Of a stretch of DNA of 64,000 nt, positions 19,805-51,936 are shown piece after piece. Source of the DNA: Streptomyces canus (lineage in GTDB: Bacteria; Actinomycetota; Actinomycetes; Streptomycetales; Streptomycetaceae). The position numbers were made by a program, and so were the translations under genes. The notes under the pieces were generated by a model, which did no database searches, was not told where the DNA came from, and worked only from the letters and a program-made list of their open reading frames with translations. Location of the stretch: contig NZ_JAUSYQ010000002.1 of NCBI RefSeq assembly GCF_030816965.1, positions 5,057,501-5,121,500 of the forward strand. The letters are read 5' to 3'. How positions within the stretch are numbered: position 1 is the first letter of the stretch; each line of letters starts with the position of its first letter.

Positions 19805-19859
19805 ACGATGGCTATCTAGGCGTGTCCTGCGAAGCAGGTAGCCGACGCCGTCGCCCTCA

Positions 19860-20757
19860 GGGGTGCTTTCAGAAAGCTGGATGTTTGCCGGCGAGGGTCA
19901 TGCAGTGTGCGAGCTGGAGGAAGGTGTCGTGCATGTCGTCGCGTACTTCCCAGCGGATTCGTAAGCGGCGGGGGCCATGGAGCCAGGCGATGGCGGACTC
20001 GGCGACCCACCTGACCTTGCCCAGTCCCGAGCCGTGCGGCTGGCCGCGTCGGGCGATCTTCGGTGTGATGACGCGCTCGCGCAGGCGGCGGCGATAGATG
20101 TCGTGGTCGTAGCCGCGGTCGGCATACAACGTGCGGGGCCTGCGCCGGGGCCGGCCCCGCCTGCCCCGCACCGGCCCAATGCTGTCGACCAGGGGCAGGA
20201 GCTGGGTGACGTCGTTGCGGTGACCGCCGGTCAGCGACACACGCAGCGGGATGCCGTGCGCCTCTGTCAGCACGTGATGCTTCGAGCCCGCCGTGCGCGG
20301 TCAACCGGGCTCGGACCGACTTTTGGGCTGCTTCGCCCCTGCTTGGCCTGCATGTGGGAGGCGTCAATGGTGGCGCGGGAGAAGTCGAGGCGGTCAGCCG
20401 CCCGCAACCCATCCAGCAGCACCCGCTGGAGTTCCTCCCACACCCCGGCCTCCTGCCACTCGGCCAGCCGCCGCCAGCACGTGGGACCCGAACCGAACCC
20501 CAACTCCTGCGGCAGGAACTCCCACTGACACCGGTGTACAGGACGAGCAGCACGCCCTGGAGCGTCTTGCGGTCATCGATCCGCTTGCGGCCCGGATACC
20601 TGTAACGACGCTCATGGCGCGGCAACAGCGGCTCGATCACCGCCCACAACTCGTCACTGACCTCCCACGGCTTCCGCCGCGCCATGGTCACGCCCCACAA
20701 ACGACGGGATCACATACATCGACACCGTGCCACAAAAGGATCATTCTGCAAGGACCC
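19860..20757 (-). mobile_element. IS5-family insertion sequence, apparently inactive
   Basis: A segment of about 898 bases bounded by imperfect inverted repeats, GGGGTGCTTTCAGAAAG on the left and GGGTCCTTGCAGAATG (reverse complement) on the right. A TCA triplet flanks both sides (19857-19859 and 20758-20760), consistent with the TNA target duplication of some IS5 subgroups. Nearly all of it is one transposase gene, broken by two frame breaks. Element size fits the family. Exact ends are inferred from the repeats. Confidence 0.75.
19869..20685 (-). pseudogene. IS5-family transposase, two frameshifts
   Basis: Three overlapping frames together give a complete DDE transposase. The N-terminal frame begins MARRKPWEVSDELWAVIEPL at 20685; the middle frame has FGSGPTCWRRLAEWQEAGVW and FSRATIDASHMQAKQG, which carries the first Asp; the C-terminal frame has TGGHRNDVTQLLPLVD, LYADRGYDHD and RWVAESAIAWLHG. 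The joins near 20535 (GTCAG where GTCCAG is expected) and near 20290 (one G short) each look like a single-base deletion. Either the gene is dead or the assembly has two errors; programmed frameshifting at two places is unlikely. Confidence 0.8.
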
Positions 20758-20871: not shown

Positions 20872-21324
20872 ATGGGAGATCTTGAAATTCGGCCCGCCAC
20901 GCTGGACGACCTCTCCGCGATCGTCGGCATGCTCACCGACGACCCCCTGGGCGTTCAGCGCGAATCCCCGGACGACCTGGCGCCCTATGTGAGCGCCCTG
21001 GAGCGCCTCTCCACCGACCCGAACCAGCATCTGGTCGTCGCCACGCGAGAGGGTCGTGTGGTCGGCACGCTTCAGCTCACGGTCGTTCCGGGCCTGTCCC
21101 GGCGCGGTGCCACCAGATCGATCACCGAAGGGGTGCGCATCCACGCCGACGAGCGTGGCAGTGGGCTCGGGACCCGGCTCATCGAGTGGGCGATCGAGGA
21201 GTCCCGGCGTCAGAACTGCCAGTTGGTGCAGCTGACGTCCGACAACACACGCCCGGACGCCCACCGCTTCTATGAACGGCTCGGTTTCACGGCCTCACAT
21301 GTGGGCTTCAAGCTGGCCCTGTGA
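20872..21324 (+). CDS. GNAT-family N-acetyltransferase
   Basis: A 150-residue single-domain acetyltransferase. The acetyl-CoA loop is in IHADERGSGLGTRLIEWAIE and the C-terminal signature is DAHRFYERLGFTASH. It begins MGDLEIRPATLDDLSAIVGM. Substrate unknown. Its ATG lies 111 bases beyond the right end of the IS element, so its upstream region may have been altered by the insertion. It is followed by the long parS palindrome. Confidence 0.87.
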   Translation: MGDLEIRPATLDDLSAIVGMLTDDPLGVQRESPDDLAPYVSALERLSTDPNQHLVVATREGRVVGTLQLTVVPGLSRRGATRSITEGVRIHADERGSGLGTRLIEWAIEESRRQNCQLVQLTSDNTRPDAHRFYERLGFTASHVGFKLAL

Positions 21325-21346: not shown

Positions 21347-21398
21347 CGGCACAGCAAGGTGCCCTGTTTCACGTGAAACAGGGCACCTTGCTGTGCCG
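21347..21398. terminator. Perfect 52-base palindrome centred on parS
   Basis: Arms of 26 bases are perfectly complementary, with the parS core (21366-21379) at the exact centre. It lies between the stop codons of the convergent acetyltransferase and serine hydrolase genes, where a bidirectional terminator is expected. The arm outside parS reads CGGCACAGCAAGGTGCCCT. Confidence 0.8.
21366..21379. other. parS site at the centre of a long palindrome
   Basis: Exact GTTTCACGTGAAAC between convergent genes; see the 52-base palindrome. Confidence 0.92.
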
Positions 21399-21413: not shown

Positions 21414-22799
21414 CTAGCCGATGCCGCGCCACCCCTCCGGATCGACTCCACCCGGCACGGAAGACCCCTCGTCGTACGGCTGCCGAGTGAACACGAACGA
21501 GCCGAGGTCGAGGTGGTCCACGGACCCGTCAGGCCGCCGTACGGCCTTCAGGAGTTCCCCATGGAAGTAGCCCTCCAGGCCGGTCCAGGTGCCGTCACCG
21601 TTGGCCCGGAATCGCGAGCGCCGACCTGTGCCCGACAGCGGCTCCAGCGAGGCGAGTCCGTCCGCAGTCAGCCGTAGGGCGAATCCATTCGTTCCCCAGT
21701 ACCACTGACCCACCAACTCCATTGAGGACGAGGCGACTTCGCGCATCGGGCGCCAGGGCTCGGGGATTCTGGGTTCGGCCTCGGCGACGATCCGTACGAG
21801 ATCGGCCCCTACAACGGACAGCAGCGGGCCGGAGGTGCAGTTGGCCAGCACCACTGCGGCCACGTCGTCCGCCACACCGATCGTGAGATTCGCCAGGAAG
21901 CCCGGCAGCGAGCCCGAATGGCCCACGAGCAGACGTCCGTCACTGTGCTGGACCTGCAATCCGAGCCCGTAAGAAGCGCCGTCGGGGAGATCCCCCATGC
22001 CGGCTGGAGCCGCGGGCATGCGCATTTCCCGCACGGCCTCCGCACTCAGTACGCGATCGTCGCCGTTGGCGAGGAAAACTGCGAATCTGGCCAAGTCAGC
22101 GGTGGTGGACCAGAGTTGACCCGCGGGAGCCATCCGTCCGAGGTCCACGGAGGGTTCGGGCAGCATCACATCGGCCCACGGATGTACGGCCCAGCCGCCC
22201 GCGTGCGGCGCTTCGGGGCGGACGCTCGTCCGGTCGAGGCCCAGAGGTGCGAGCACCTCACGTCGGAGCACCTCCTCCCACGGAGCCCCCCGCAGCTTCT
22301 CGACGAGTGCGCCCAGCAGGGTGTACCCGGGGTTCGAGTAGTGGAAGCGACGTCCGACGGGGTGCCGAAAGGGCTGCTCGCCCAGTACGTCGGCGATTTC
22401 CGGGCGCAGCCCCCCGGAGGTGCGCTCCCACCAGGGCGCGGGAGACTCGGCCGCCAATCCACTGGTGTGGGCGAGGAGTTCGGCCACTGTGGCCTCCCCC
22501 GCTCCCGTGCCGGACACGTGCTTCTCCAGCGGGTCACCGAGGTCGAGCAGTCCCTCGTCCCGCAGTCGCATGACGAGAACGGCGGTGAAGGTCTTGGTGA
22601 TCGACCCGATGCGGTACTGCACGTTCTCGTCCGGGCCGTGCCCGTCCACCGAGGTACGCGAACCGTGCCACACCGACCGTCCGCCCCTCACGACCGCCGC
22701 TACCAGCGACGGTGCCCGCCCTTCGGCCTGGGCCACGGCGATCCGGTGCAGCAACGCCCTGCGTGTACCGGGAAGCAGCTCTCCCTGAGATGTCGTCAT
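21414..22799 (-). CDS. Serine hydrolase, beta-lactamase / class C type
   Basis: A 461-residue protein of the beta-lactamase-like serine hydrolase family. The nucleophile motif SITK is at residues 66-69, the second motif is YSN (FHYSNPGY), and the third is the HSG triad (VGHSGSLPG). There is no signal peptide, so it is probably cytoplasmic. The last 110 residues form an extra domain (VGQWYWGTNGFALRL). Peptidase or esterase action is as likely as beta-lactam hydrolysis. Confidence 0.85.
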   Translation of the reverse strand: MTTSQGELLPGTRRALLHRIAVAQAEGRAPSLVAAVVRGGRSVWHGSRTSVDGHGPDENVQYRIGSITKTFTAVLVMRLRDEGLLDLGDPLEKHVSGTGAGEATVAELLAHTSGLAAESPAPWWERTSGGLRPEIADVLGEQPFRHPVGRRFHYSNPGYTLLGALVEKLRGAPWEEVLRREVLAPLGLDRTSVRPEAPHAGGWAVHPWADVMLPEPSVDLGRMAPAGQLWSTTADLARFAVFLANGDDRVLSAEAVREMRMPAAPAGMGDLPDGASYGLGLQVQHSDGRLLVGHSGSLPGFLANLTIGVADDVAAVVLANCTSGPLLSVVGADLVRIVAEAEPRIPEPWRPMREVASSSMELVGQWYWGTNGFALRLTADGLASLEPLSGTGRRSRFRANGDGTWTGLEGYFHGELLKAVRRPDGSVDHLDLGSFVFTRQPYDEGSSVPGGVDPEGWRGIG

Positions 22800-27690: not shown

Positions 27691-27726
27691 AGAAGGGGCC
27701 GCACCCCAGCGGGTGCGGCCCCTTCT
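27691..27726. terminator. Bidirectional terminator between MATE gene and rplI
   Basis: Perfect 16-base arms (AGAAGGGGCCGCACCC and its complement) with the loop CAGC. Ends the ribosomal operon on the minus strand. Confidence 0.85.
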
Positions 27727-31451: not shown

Positions 31452-32483
31452 ATGGCGCTCACGCTCTACGTCGACACCGCGCGCTGGCGGGCGCACCACA
31501 AGCACGTGCAGGAGCAGTTCCCAGGGCTCGTCCCGGTCTGCAAGGGCAACGGCTATGGCTTCGGGCACGAGCGGCTGGCGGAGGAGGCCACCCGGCTGGG
31601 CTCGGACGTCCTCGCCGTCGGCACGACCTACGAGGCCGCGCGGATCAAGGACTGGTTCGGCGGTGACCTGCTGGTGCTGACGCCGTACCGACGAGGCGAG
31701 GAGCCCGTACCGCTGCCCGACCGGGTGATCCGCTCGGTGTCGTCGATCGACGGGGTCTACGGCCTCGTGGGCGCCCGCGTGGTCATCGAGGTGATGTCCT
31801 CGATGAAACGGCACGGCATCAGCGAGCAGGATCTGCCGCAGCTGCACGCCGCCATAGAGAACGTGCGCCTCGAGGGCTTCGCGATCCACCTGCCGCTGGA
31901 CCGCACCGACGGCTCGGACGCCGTCGAGGAGGTCATCGGCTGGATGGACCGGCTGCGCGCGGCCCGGCTGCCGCTGCACACCATGTTCGTCAGCCATCTC
32001 AAGGCCGAAGATCTCGCCCGGCTGCAGCAGCAGTTCCCGCAGACCCGGTTCCGCGCGCGCATCGGGACCCGGTTGTGGCTCGGGGACCATGACTCCACCG
32101 AGTACCGCGGCGCCGTCCTGGACGTCACCCGCGTCTCCAAGGGGGACCGCTTCGGCTACCGGCAGCAGAAGGCGGCCTCCGACGGCTTCCTGGTCGTCGT
32201 GGCCGGCGGTACGTCGCACGGCGTGGGCCTGGAGGCTCCGAAGGCCCTGCACGGCGTCATGCCGCGCGCCAAGGGCGTCGCCCGCGCCGGTCTGGCCACG
32301 GTCAACCGGAACCTTTCTCCTTTCGTCTGGGGCGGCAAGCAGCGCTGGTTCGCCGAACCGCCGCACATGCAGGTGTCCATCCTGTTCGTGCCCTCGGACG
32401 CCCCAGAACCGAAGGTCGGCGAGGAGCTGGTGGCCCATCTGCGGCACACCACCACGCAGTTCGACCGGATCGTCGACCGCTGA
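31452..32483 (+). CDS. Alanine-racemase-like PLP protein
   Basis: A 343-residue protein. The start MALTLYVDTARWRAHHKHVQ leads to VCKGNGYGFGHERLA, the equivalent of the Alr PLP lysine motif VVKADAYGHG. A barrel follows (FAIHLPLDRT, MFVSHLK, ARIGTRLWLG). The C-terminal beta domain has a GYRQQKA region, but the Tyr of the standard second catalytic motif is not obvious. The family is clear; racemase activity is not. It lies 74 bases after femX and may act with it in the cell wall. Confidence 0.75.
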   Translation: MALTLYVDTARWRAHHKHVQEQFPGLVPVCKGNGYGFGHERLAEEATRLGSDVLAVGTTYEAARIKDWFGGDLLVLTPYRRGEEPVPLPDRVIRSVSSIDGVYGLVGARVVIEVMSSMKRHGISEQDLPQLHAAIENVRLEGFAIHLPLDRTDGSDAVEEVIGWMDRLRAARLPLHTMFVSHLKAEDLARLQQQFPQTRFRARIGTRLWLGDHDSTEYRGAVLDVTRVSKGDRFGYRQQKAASDGFLVVVAGGTSHGVGLEAPKALHGVMPRAKGVARAGLATVNRNLSPFVWGGKQRWFAEPPHMQVSILFVPSDAPEPKVGEELVAHLRHTTTQFDRIVDR

Positions 32484-32543: not shown

Positions 32544-32583
32544 CGAAGGGCTGTGCACGGAAGCTTCCGTGCACAGCCCTTCG
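32544..32583. terminator. Perfect 40-base palindrome, bidirectional terminator
   Basis: Two perfect 20-base arms (CGAAGGGCTGTGCACGGAAG and its complement) without spacer, between the convergent racemase-like and glycosyltransferase genes. No parS here. Confidence 0.8.
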
Positions 32584-32626: not shown

Positions 32627-34129
32627 TCAGAGCGAACGGTCGGCGGCTCCGCGGTCGTTGCCCCACTCCACCTGCGGTCCGTCGAAGTGGGCCGCGTGCC
32701 GTGGTGGATGGGCGGCGGGGCCGAACACGAAGACGTCCTCCGCTCCGTCGAGCACACCGCCCGAGGGATCGTCGTCGCCGGCCCGCCGTACCACGTCCCG
32801 TTCCGGCATGAGGATGTCGCGCAGGACCATCGCGCACAGGTAGGCCGTGCCCAGGAGATGCAGTCCGATGGCCCAGTGATAGCCGTCGGTCGGCAGGCCC
32901 TTGTGGGCGTTGCCGCTGGTCGTGTACGCGAGGTACAGCCAGATCCCCAGGAAGTACGCCACCTCGCACGCCTGCCAGATGAGGAAGTCCCGCCACTTCG
33001 GCCGCGCCAGCACAGCCAGCGGCACCATCCACAGAACGTACTGCGGCGAGTAGACCTTGTTGGTGAGGATGAACGCGGCGACGATCAGGAACGCGAGCTG
33101 GGCGAAACGCGGCCGGCGCGGAGCGGTCAGGGTGAGCGCCGCGATACCGGCGCAGGACAGCAACATCAACAGTGTGGCAAGCGTGTTGACGGTGTCGGTG
33201 CTCAACGGGTCGGTCGAGTTCTGCGCCAGGATCAGCCAGAAGGAGCCGAAGTCCACGCCCCGCTCCTGGCTGAACGTGTAGAACTTCGACCAGCCGTCGA
33301 AGGCGAAGAACATCACCGGCAGGTTCACCACGAGCCAGGAGACCGCCGCGCCGCCCAGGGCCTTGCCGAAGTCCCGCCACTTGCCCGCCCGCCAGCACAG
33401 CACGAACAGTGGCCCCAGCAGGAAGATCGGGTAGAGCTTGGCGGCCGTGGCGAGCCCCAGGAGGACGCCGAAGGCGAGCGAGCGCCCCCGCGCCCACATC
33501 AGCATCGCGGAGGCCGTCAGAGCGACCGCCAGCAGGTCCCAGTTGATGGTGGCCGTCAACGCGAAGGCGGGCGCCAGAGCGACCAGCAGACCGTCCCAGG
33601 GCCGACGGGCATGCGTACGGCTCACGCAGACGACGATGATGGCCGCGCACACCATCAGCATCCCGGCGTTGACCATCCAGTACCACTGCTCCTGGTGCTG
33701 GATGCTGCCGCTGCCGGGCGTCAGCCAGGCGGCGACCTCCATGAACACACCAGTCAGCACCGGGTATTCGAGGTACTGCATGTCGCCGGGGAGCTTGTCG
33801 AAGTACGGGACGAGTCCGTCGGCGAAGCCACGTCCCTGATAGAGGTGCGGGATGTCCGAGTAGCACGCATGGGTGTACTGGGAGCTGGCGCCGAAGAACC
33901 ACCCACCGTTGTAGCAGGGCGCCTTCTGGACCAGGCCCAGCGCGAACACGCCGATGGCCACGAGCGCGATGACCCGGACGGGGGTCCACCAGGACGTCCC
34001 CAGCAGGGCACGTCGCCCTAGAGGGCCGCCGATGAACTCGCTGCCGCTCCTGGAGACCTCGTCGTCCTTGGTCGGATGCACTGGGTCCGACTCGTGCACG
34101 CTCGTTGGCGTCGATTCAGCACTGGGCAT
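32627..34129 (-). CDS. Membrane glycosyltransferase, GT87 / DUF2029 type
   Basis: About 500 residues with some 11-12 hydrophobic helices. WTPVRVIALVAIGVFALGLV opens the membrane region; INWDLLAVALTASAMLMWAR and GVLLGLATAAKLYPIFLLGP are typical of polyprenol-phosphate-sugar-dependent GT87 enzymes. Acts outside the membrane on cell-envelope glycans, substrate unknown. ATG 34129 is favoured (GGCAGG upstream); ATG 34138 and a false start created by parS at 34213 are in frame. Confidence 0.8.
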   Translation of the reverse strand: MPSAESTPTSVHESDPVHPTKDDEVSRSGSEFIGGPLGRRALLGTSWWTPVRVIALVAIGVFALGLVQKAPCYNGGWFFGASSQYTHACYSDIPHLYQGRGFADGLVPYFDKLPGDMQYLEYPVLTGVFMEVAAWLTPGSGSIQHQEQWYWMVNAGMLMVCAAIIVVCVSRTHARRPWDGLLVALAPAFALTATINWDLLAVALTASAMLMWARGRSLAFGVLLGLATAAKLYPIFLLGPLFVLCWRAGKWRDFGKALGGAAVSWLVVNLPVMFFAFDGWSKFYTFSQERGVDFGSFWLILAQNSTDPLSTDTVNTLATLLMLLSCAGIAALTLTAPRRPRFAQLAFLIVAAFILTNKVYSPQYVLWMVPLAVLARPKWRDFLIWQACEVAYFLGIWLYLAYTTSGNAHKGLPTDGYHWAIGLHLLGTAYLCAMVLRDILMPERDVVRRAGDDDPSGGVLDGAEDVFVFGPAAHPPRHAAHFDGPQVEWGNDRGAADRSL

Positions 34130-34167: not shown

Positions 34168-34198
34168 GGGCCGCCGCACCTGGTAGGTGCGACGGCCC
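34168..34198 (-). terminator. Hairpin after the PBP gene, adjacent to parS
   Basis: Arms of 14 bases (GGGCCGCCGCACCT / AGGTGCGACGGCCC, one mismatch) with a 3-base loop, two bases from the parS site at 34201. It separates the PBP and glycosyltransferase genes. Confidence 0.65.
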
Positions 34199-34200
34199 AT

Positions 34201-34214
34201 GTTTCACGTGAAAC
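34201..34214. other. parS site
   Basis: Exact GTTTCACGTGAAAC between the PBP stop codon and the following hairpin. Confidence 0.92.
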
Positions 34215-39169: not shown

Positions 39170-40444
39170 ATGTCCGTCGTGCGTGATCTGCGGGTCCTGC
39201 TGCGCTTCCGGGACTTCCGGCGTCTGCTCTCCGTGCGCCTGCTCTCCCAGGGCGCGGACGGTGTCTACCAGATCGCGCTCGCCGCCTACGTCGTCTTCTC
39301 CCCAGAGAAGCAAACCTCGGCCGCGGCGATCGCCTCCGCGATGGCGGTCCTGCTGCTCCCTTACTCCTTGGTGGGCCCCTTCGCCGGCGTCCTCCTGGAC
39401 CGCTGGCGCCGCCGTGAGGTCTTCCTCTACGGCAACCTCTTGCGCGCCCTGCTGGCTTCGGTGACGGCCGTCCTGATGCTCAGCCACGTCCCGGACTGGC
39501 TCTTCTACGTCTCCGCCCTGTGCGTCACCGCCGTCAACCGCTTCGTTCTGTCCGGCCTGTCCGCCGCACTGCCCCGTGTCGTGGACGAGGAACGACTGGT
39601 GATCGCCAACTCCCTCTCCCCGACGGCCGGAACTCTCGCCGCGACCGCAGGCGGCGGCCTCGCCTTCGTCGTACGACTGGTGGTCGCCGACTCCGACGCA
39701 GTCGTGGTGCTGCTGGGAGCGGGGCTGTACCTGTGCGGCGCGCTCGCCGCGCTGCGCGTGCCACCCGAACTGCTGGGCCCCGACCGTGGGTTGATCAAGC
39801 CCCACCTCGGTACGGCTCTCGCCGGAACGGCCCGCGACCTGGTCGCCGGTATACGGCACCTGGCCGCACCCTCACGTCGGTCGGCCGCCCGGGCGCTCGG
39901 CGCGATGTCACTCATGCGGTTCTGCTACGGCGCTCTGCTCGTCATGGTCCTGATGCTCTGCCGGTACGCCCTGGCGTCCGATCCGGACGACGGACTTGCC
40001 CTGCTGGGCGTGGCATTGGGACTCTCCGGTGCCGGCTTCTTCGTCGCCGCCGTCATCACCCCTTGGACCGCAGGAAAACTCGGACCGGAGCGCTGGATCG
40101 CCGTGTGTGCGGCGACCGCCGCAGTGCTGGAGCCCACTCTCGGACTCCCCTTCGACACCGCTCCGATACTCATCGCGGCGTTCGTCCTGGGCCTGATCAC
40201 CCAAGGCGCGAAGATCGCCACGGACACCATCGTGCAGTCCTCCGTAGATGACGGATTCCGGGGCCGGATCTTTTCCGTCTACGACGTCCTGTTCAACATC
40301 GCCTTCGTGGGCGCCGCAGCCGTAGCCGCCCTGATCCTGCCGCCGGATGGCCGCTCGGTGACCCTGGTGATCGGGGTCGCCGTTCTCTATGCTGCGGTCG
40401 CCCTGGCGATGACGAAGGAACGGCGGATGGCGGCGGAACGATGA
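39170..40444 (+). CDS. MFS transporter
   Basis: A 424-residue protein with about 11-12 hydrophobic helices. MSVVRDLRVLLRFRDFRRLL opens it; the loop-2 motif is GVLLDRWRRREVFLYGN and later KIATDTIVQSSVDDGFRGRI. It resembles the macrolide-efflux-like MFS_3 group. Substrate unknown. ATG 39170 is the family start; the longer frame overlaps the ino1 stop region. Convergent with cca. Confidence 0.82.
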   Translation: MSVVRDLRVLLRFRDFRRLLSVRLLSQGADGVYQIALAAYVVFSPEKQTSAAAIASAMAVLLLPYSLVGPFAGVLLDRWRRREVFLYGNLLRALLASVTAVLMLSHVPDWLFYVSALCVTAVNRFVLSGLSAALPRVVDEERLVIANSLSPTAGTLAATAGGGLAFVVRLVVADSDAVVVLLGAGLYLCGALAALRVPPELLGPDRGLIKPHLGTALAGTARDLVAGIRHLAAPSRRSAARALGAMSLMRFCYGALLVMVLMLCRYALASDPDDGLALLGVALGLSGAGFFVAAVITPWTAGKLGPERWIAVCAATAAVLEPTLGLPFDTAPILIAAFVLGLITQGAKIATDTIVQSSVDDGFRGRIFSVYDVLFNIAFVGAAAVAALILPPDGRSVTLVIGVAVLYAAVALAMTKERRMAAER

Positions 40445-40478
40445 GGGGGCGATGTTTCACGTGAAACACCGCCCCCTC
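40443..40478. terminator. Near-perfect 36-base palindrome around parS
   Basis: GAGGGGGCGATGTTTCAC and its partner arm differ at a single base. It begins at the MFS stop codon and has parS 40454-40467 at its centre. Confidence 0.7.
40454..40467. other. parS site
   Basis: Exact GTTTCACGTGAAAC in the convergent MFS-cca gap, ten bases after the MFS stop. Confidence 0.92.
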
Positions 40479-40487
40479 TATGCGCCA

Positions 40488-40517
40488 GGGGTCATGTTTC
40501 ACGTGAAACATGACCCC
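40488..40517. terminator. Perfect 30-base palindrome around parS
   Basis: Perfect 15-base arms (GGGGTCATGTTTCAC and complement) with parS 40496-40509 in the centre, 11 bases before the cca stop codon. Confidence 0.7.
40496..40509. other. parS site
   Basis: Exact GTTTCACGTGAAAC, 42 bases from its neighbour. Confidence 0.92.
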
Positions 40518-51902: not shown

Positions 51903-51936
51903 CGATGGGGCCGGCCCGAAAGGGCCGGCCCCATCG
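51903..51936. terminator. Bidirectional terminator, GAAA loop
   Basis: Perfect 15-base arms (CGATGGGGCCGGCCC and complement) with a GAAA tetraloop, between trxA and the acetyltransferase gene. Confidence 0.85.

Follow-up and report, generated by a model that had tools for sequence, protein, structure and literature searches.

In the analysed window, that is, the whole 64-kb stretch of Streptomyces canus DNA, two convergent genes are separated by a long perfect palindrome that has the ParB site parS at its centre. This architecture recurs in two different convergent gaps of Streptomyces genomes, and the bases of the palindrome arms outside parS covary. Judging from the sequence, we consider it likely that the 52-bp palindrome forms a hairpin for 3' ends in both directions, with parS at its apex, most probably a U-poor, long-stem intrinsic terminator common to both genes. 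RNA polymerase would then terminate at the hairpin and ParB would bind to this copy of parS, and one short sequence would probably serve both chromosome segregation and transcript ending in many Streptomyces species.

The palindrome is located in the 89-nt gap between the converging genes for a GNAT acetyltransferase and a beta-lactamase-fold protein, and the coordinates of the features are collected in the table. An earlier note on this DNA had claimed a perfect 52-base palindrome with parS at the exact centre, 19 paired bases on each side of the 14-base site, and a convergent-gene setting. Every part of this description was borne out: the two arms (21347-21372 and 21373-21398) comprise 26 nt each, are 100% complementary, and directly adjoin one another (0 nt spacer). 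No longer perfect palindrome was found in the window. The second longest, a perfect 40-bp palindrome without parS at 32544-32583, likewise lies in the gap between convergent genes (31452-32483 on the plus strand and 32627-34081 on the minus strand), and the third, with parS, measures 30 bp (40488-40517). The RNA of the 89-nt gap was predicted to fold with -66.0 kcal/mol (z -9.7), and that of the other strand with -65.7 kcal/mol (z -8.7), both compared to 200 shuffles; in the folds of both strands, an outer interrupted CCCCTG/CAGGGG pairing encloses the palindrome. No match to Rfam at the gathering score was obtained for positions 17000-56000 of the window. Sixteen matches to parS with up to three mismatches were found in the window, versus 1.28 expected, and 11 of them were exact, out of 18 exact sites in the genome. 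The window also contains dnaB, and the parS cluster is probably close to oriC. Just upstream of the GNAT gene, overlapping reading frames on the minus strand (19816-20700) resemble what we take to be a broken transposase.

Table. Positions of the parS-centred palindromes, their neighbouring genes and contrasting looped hairpins in the window.
Feature	Position	Strand	Remarks
GNAT acetyltransferase gene	20872..21324	+	PF00583; stop 22 nt before the palindrome
Perfect 52-bp palindrome	21347..21398	.	Putative hairpin stem, the inner part formed by parS; resembles a 3' terminator hairpin common to both converging genes
Left arm beyond parS, 19 nt	21347..21365	.	Letters vary among species
parS	21366..21379	.	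GTTTCACGTGAAAC, exact consensus
Right arm beyond parS, 19 nt	21380..21398	.	Perfect inverted repeat of the left arm
Beta-lactamase-fold protein gene	21414..22799	-	PF00144 + DUF7586; stop 15 nt past the palindrome
Contrast: looped hairpin	27691..27726	.	Arms of 16 bp, CAGC loop; close to two parS without arms (27613/27650), in another convergent gap
Second example: one-mismatch palindrome, half-arm 18	40443..40478	.	Contains parS 40454-40467; pcnA-side convergent gap
Third example: perfect 30-bp palindrome	40488..40517	.	parS 40496-40509 central; pcnA-side gap
Contrast: looped hairpin	51903..51936	.	15-bp arms, loop GAAA; adjoins armless parS 51888

A relative of the GNAT gene was present in 145 of 150 Streptomyces genomes, including that of the window, and the best locus per genome was taken for each of the 145. 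The beta-lactamase-fold gene was convergent within 350 nt of the GNAT gene in 100 of these loci. This was not so in the remaining 45, often with an intervening gene; an exact parS was contained in the examined stretch in 15 of them, in nine cases beside the beta-lactamase-fold gene. In the 100 adjacent loci, the gap contained an exact parS in 90 cases, only near matches with one or two mismatches in 4 cases, and none in 6 cases. After identical arms had been collapsed, 88 loci were left, and in 66 of them parS was extended outward by at least five perfect pairs, compared to 3.4% when the left arm of one species was matched with the right arm of another. At positions 2-6 beyond parS, the fraction of Watson-Crick pairs was 0.82-0.91 in these 88 loci versus 0.38-0.47 in the mixed-species control. 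A second panel of named loci comprised the best 80 of 339 related loci and is, for that reason, biased towards the relatives of the window; 75 of them were adjacent, 70 contained parS, and 58 had at least five perfect pairs. When both panels were merged and identical GNAT genes were removed, 152 of 160 loci remained. At least five perfect pairs beyond parS were found in 120 of these, at least eight in 95, at least 15 in 22, and fewer than five in 32, and the mixed-species control yielded 4.1% for at least five and 0.9% for at least eight pairs. When one arm was slid by 1-4 bases, the paired fraction at positions 5-9 dropped to 0.27-0.41, compared to 0.825 in register. The mixed-species and sliding controls together reject a chance origin of the arms, and the parS-centred palindrome is not an accident of one genome. 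A mobile or repetitive palindromic element was rejected as well, because the arms are unrelated both between species (mean identity of 0.44 over the first 10 nt) and between the sites 21366, 40454, and 40496 of the window.

The second and third example in the window share the gap between an MFS-type gene and a convergent PolyA_pol-HD gene, named pcnA here. In 20 Streptomyces genomes, this gap contained 39 parS sites, two apiece in 19 of the genomes, and at least five perfect pairs were present at 26 of the 39, with differing arms. Elsewhere in the same +15 to +35 kb stretches, arms were found at 1 of 19 other convergent, 1 of 29 tandem, 2 of 13 intragenic, 0 of 1 divergent, and 1 of 8 edge parS sites. 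We also inspected the region 3' of pcnA in 20 further genomes of the family, which represent 15 genera other than Streptomyces. An MFS-type neighbour was recognised at only 6 of these 20 loci, and convergence may not apply to the other 14. A parS with up to two mismatches was present within about 120 nt in 12 genomes, and in 6 of these it was centred in a palindrome with at least five further pairs. One of these six loci (L268) carries the symmetric parS variant GTTCCACGTGGAAC inside a 32-bp perfect palindrome, and in two loci (L275 and L279) two parS copies form the arms of one long stem, which is closed by further pairs. At another locus (L266) one half of parS pairs with a degenerate copy, at L276 parS is accompanied by a separate hairpin, and L271 and L273 contain three armless parS sites and no hairpin. 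The eight loci without parS had an ordinary hairpin with a loop of 4-6 nt near the stop codon in 6 cases and none nearby in 2 cases. At the beta-lactamase-fold locus, neither a GNAT neighbour nor an exact parS was found in any of the 20 stretches from other genera. In a sample of the phylum, 78 of 119 genomes contained an exact parS; among the 30 loci listed, 53 sites were from 27 non-Streptomyces genomes, and at least five perfect pairs were present at two of them, both in L312. A 12-base extension beyond parS with one mismatch was found in L309. Both loci belong to Actinobacteria outside the family, and the parS-centred hairpin lies between two genes of the same direction, presumably rsmG-like and parA-like to judge from their translations; the sequence that follows the stem is somewhat rich in T.

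The gene context was analysed for 373 exact parS sites in 116 stretches; a perfect extension of at least five pairs was found at 66 of 214 convergent, 5 of 56 divergent, 7 of 84 tandem, 0 of 13 intragenic, and 0 of 6 edge sites, with classes taken from our own gene caller, which used codon statistics alone and may have assigned some orientations wrongly. Resolved by gap, parS was armed in 43 of 60 cases on the GNAT side, in 16 of 92 other convergent gaps, and in 11 of 88 non-convergent cases. Thus, a general rule that convergent parS sites are armed failed, and the effect of convergent orientation derives mainly from two gaps, the GNAT-side gap foremost. The best structure in the 60 GNAT-side gaps was centred on parS in 48 cases, off-centre in 2, and absent in 10. 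For the 92 other convergent gaps, it was a separate hairpin in 39 cases, parS-centred in 15, an off-centre overlap in 27, and absent in 11; in the rows inspected, the off-centre class mostly reflected pairing of parS with a neighbouring parS, and it was not counted as support. Gaps without parS contained a strong hairpin in 37% of convergent (n=268), 7% of divergent, and 12% of tandem cases, and in 49% of convergent gaps of 40-200 nt (n=193). By comparison, a separate hairpin was found in 63 of the 76 other convergent gaps with armless parS. One had also been expected beside unarmed parS on the GNAT side, but was found in only 1 of 17 cases of the 60-gap set, so that a hairpin is not indispensable there. 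Counts of armed parS with an additional separate hairpin were inflated because long arms were re-counted across the masked parS, and neither these counts nor the Fisher values were used.

The convergent MATE gap of the window (parS 27613/27650) has armless parS and a conserved looped hairpin nearby. In a tandem gap (about 34168-34201), a G+C-rich hairpin stops, by eye, about 2 nt before parS 34201, and a hairpin abutting parS in this manner is also present in many relatives. The hairpins at 27691-27726 and about 34168-34198, although in different gaps, have similar stems, of the GGGCCGCACCC and GGGCCGCCGCACC types. Stems of these types appear to be conserved across species, unlike the freely varying parS arms.

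The position and shape of a bidirectional terminator had also been ascribed to the palindrome. The place 3' of both converging genes, the symmetry, and the stable fold energy agree with this, as do the ordinary looped hairpins that most relatives lacking parS at that place have 3' of pcnA, and for these reasons we read the hairpin as a probable terminator. It is G+C-rich (22 nt past the GNAT stop and 15 nt short of the opposing stop codon), has a long stable stem on both strands and a short loop, and lies between convergent genes, which are the traits of U-poor bidirectional hairpin ends. Forty-mers centred on parS reached -23 kcal/mol or lower in 130 of 160 cases in the GNAT gap, compared to none of the 56 divergent and 5% of the 84 tandem sites. 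What the hairpin lacks is the U-tract of a canonical terminator: in 120 hairpins, the mean number of U per 10 nt after the stem was 1.57 in the GNAT sense and 2.30 in the opposite sense, and a simple scan for canonical terminators returned no site. At the 52-bp palindrome, neither strand has a U-run beyond the stem. Term-seq work on Streptomyces has described hairpins that are long, stable, and U-poor, as well as bidirectional ends, in the accessible text of PMC8269248 and PMC12207403, and the U-poverty of the parS hairpin would fit such ends.

The missing U-tract would also suit a hairpin that acts solely as a 3'-end stabiliser, i.e. transcripts would end elsewhere, for example by Rho, and would be trimmed back to a hairpin that protects both mRNAs. 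In the accessible part of the S. clavuligerus Term-seq study (PMC8269248), it is considered that structured U-poor ends may be the 3' termini of Rho-dependent transcripts. Nothing decisive speaks against stabilisation, as sequence cannot separate it from termination; however, the symmetry of an element placed between two facing genes is in keeping with insulation, and stabilisation by itself has no need of insulation. We therefore regard stabilisation as possible but unlikely, and prefer termination at the hairpin.

The perfection of the palindrome gives both transcripts the same hairpin. In RNA from either strand, the apex would consist of an inner stem GUUUC/GAAAC and a loop ACGU, and the same 14-16 bp would, as double-stranded DNA, form the ParB loading site. 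The letters of the parS core would be fixed by ParB, and the arms would be free in their letters and constrained to pair, so that they would drift by compensatory change and by partly templated copying from arm to arm.

The earlier note had asked whether arm bases outside parS covary, and they clearly do, in two separate gaps, the GNAT-side and the pcnA-side gap. Covariation was quantified in 58 disjoint pairs of close species (GNAT difference up to 0.16) at the first 8 positions beyond parS, i.e. at 464 positions. Both sides had changed at 91 positions, versus 28 expected if changes were independent, and 78 of the 91 were paired in both species, which is not the pattern of arms that vary without compensatory changes. 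Of the other positions, 322 were unchanged and paired, 46 had changed on one side, and 5 were unchanged and unpaired. Compensatory changes were also seen by eye (L165/L166/L181, L153/L163, L171/L179, L174/L221, and L168/L185). Mismatches within the arms were few in the merged panels, with two that could form a wobble pair on one strand, three on the other, and three on neither; with a looser rule, the 88-locus set yielded 4, 6, and 9, respectively. The lack of a strand preference in this small sample suits bidirectional use.

Pairing might, on the other hand, be a mutational by-product without selection on the arms, if the parS hairpin primes template switching and one arm is copied onto the other. 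The clade of the window speaks for this. The window (L001), L002, L146, and L147 (S. canus DSM 40017) form one fully supported group in the tree; the paired bases beyond parS number 19-20 in the window, L002, and L147, and 8 followed by a broken stretch in L146. The tree is compatible with a single origin of the long arms. The window and L002 differ by 9% at third positions of the GNAT gene. Several differences, among them a one-base insertion, separate their arms, and each of these is mirrored in the opposite arm, so that the right arm follows the private changes of the left one. This one clade points to partly templated copying between the arms. The 14-bp palindrome would be a ready nucleus for such events, and the scarcity of arms in most other convergent parS gaps is compatible with a locus-dependent accident. 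However, template switching should act at every intergenic parS, yet arms cluster in two gaps; one-sided changes occur at every distance from parS, so that the pairing is not copied whole each time; and 6 of the 8 parS-less pcnA loci of other genera bear looped hairpins. These points oppose template switching only as the exclusive cause, which we consider improbable, and it may have helped to build a selected terminator hairpin. Least probable of all is that the arms serve ParB, in that a longer palindrome improves loading, for example by cruciform extrusion: parS is exactly central and 74 of the 88 loci have a T-A pair at position 1 beyond it, which makes the ParB motif effectively 16 bp, but arms are rare at divergent, tandem, and intragenic parS (12 of 153), 76 of the 92 other convergent parS gaps lack them, and their letters are little conserved.

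Under the preferred reading as a terminator, a centromere site is nested in an RNA hairpin and two constraints are combined, ParB-fixed letters in the middle and letter-free pairing outside. Whether ParB loading is linked to transcription termination becomes directly testable, e.g. in S. venezuelae if the arms are present there, a species for which ParB ChIP-seq (PMC4852455, PMC12511625) and, as mentioned in the accessible text of PMC12207403, also Term-seq exist. Mutation of parS may damage a transcript end, and effects of parS deletions near oriC may accordingly include read-through. The panels supply more than 100 natural variants of one element with differing arm lengths. A more speculative extension, to which we assign a low probability, is a regulated junction: apex-bound ParB would block or pause RNA polymerase and thereby make termination bidirectional, and the terminator would protect ParB clamps in the origin region from being swept away by transcription. 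If true, the segregation state would be coupled to transcript ends near oriC, and parS would have been brought to transcription ends, or retained there, because of that coupling.

The Streptomyces parS clusters near oriC share the same 14-bp site and the origin-proximal position, and nearly all ParB ChIP-seq peaks of S. venezuelae match parS, as far as described in the accessible text of PMC4852455 and PMC8743542. The difference is that parS has been treated there as a ParB site only, and the string "terminat" is absent from the main texts of PMC8743542 and PMC12511625. A literature search that covered few subscription papers, and for which PMC12511625, PMC4852455, PMC7022226, and PMC8743542 were accessible in part, retrieved no paper linking parS with a terminator in Streptomyces. 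The bidirectional (Bi-TEP) and HS-U-lack ends of Streptomyces resemble the parS hairpin in the long stable stem, the short loop, the few U, and a stem usable on both strands (PMC8269248 and PMC12207403, accessible parts); they differ in that a segregation motif is not described in these parts, and "parS" is absent from the main text of PMC8269248. In Neisseria, terminators with a built-in DNA recognition motif are already known, and a parS in such a role in Streptomyces is without precedent in the sources retrieved. According to the accessible part of PMC2397512, inverted DNA uptake sequences (DUS) of Neisseria form Rho-independent terminators, and the likeness is that a motif in DNA which one system recognises doubles as a terminator hairpin. 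The motifs themselves differ, parS being a ParB loading site near oriC and DUS an uptake signal. From the same part of that source, the stem in Neisseria consists of closely spaced inverted copies of the motif, whereas in the parS hairpins it usually has one self-palindromic parS as the apex and unrelated, variable arms. Stems made of two parS copies do occur, however, as in L275 and L279.
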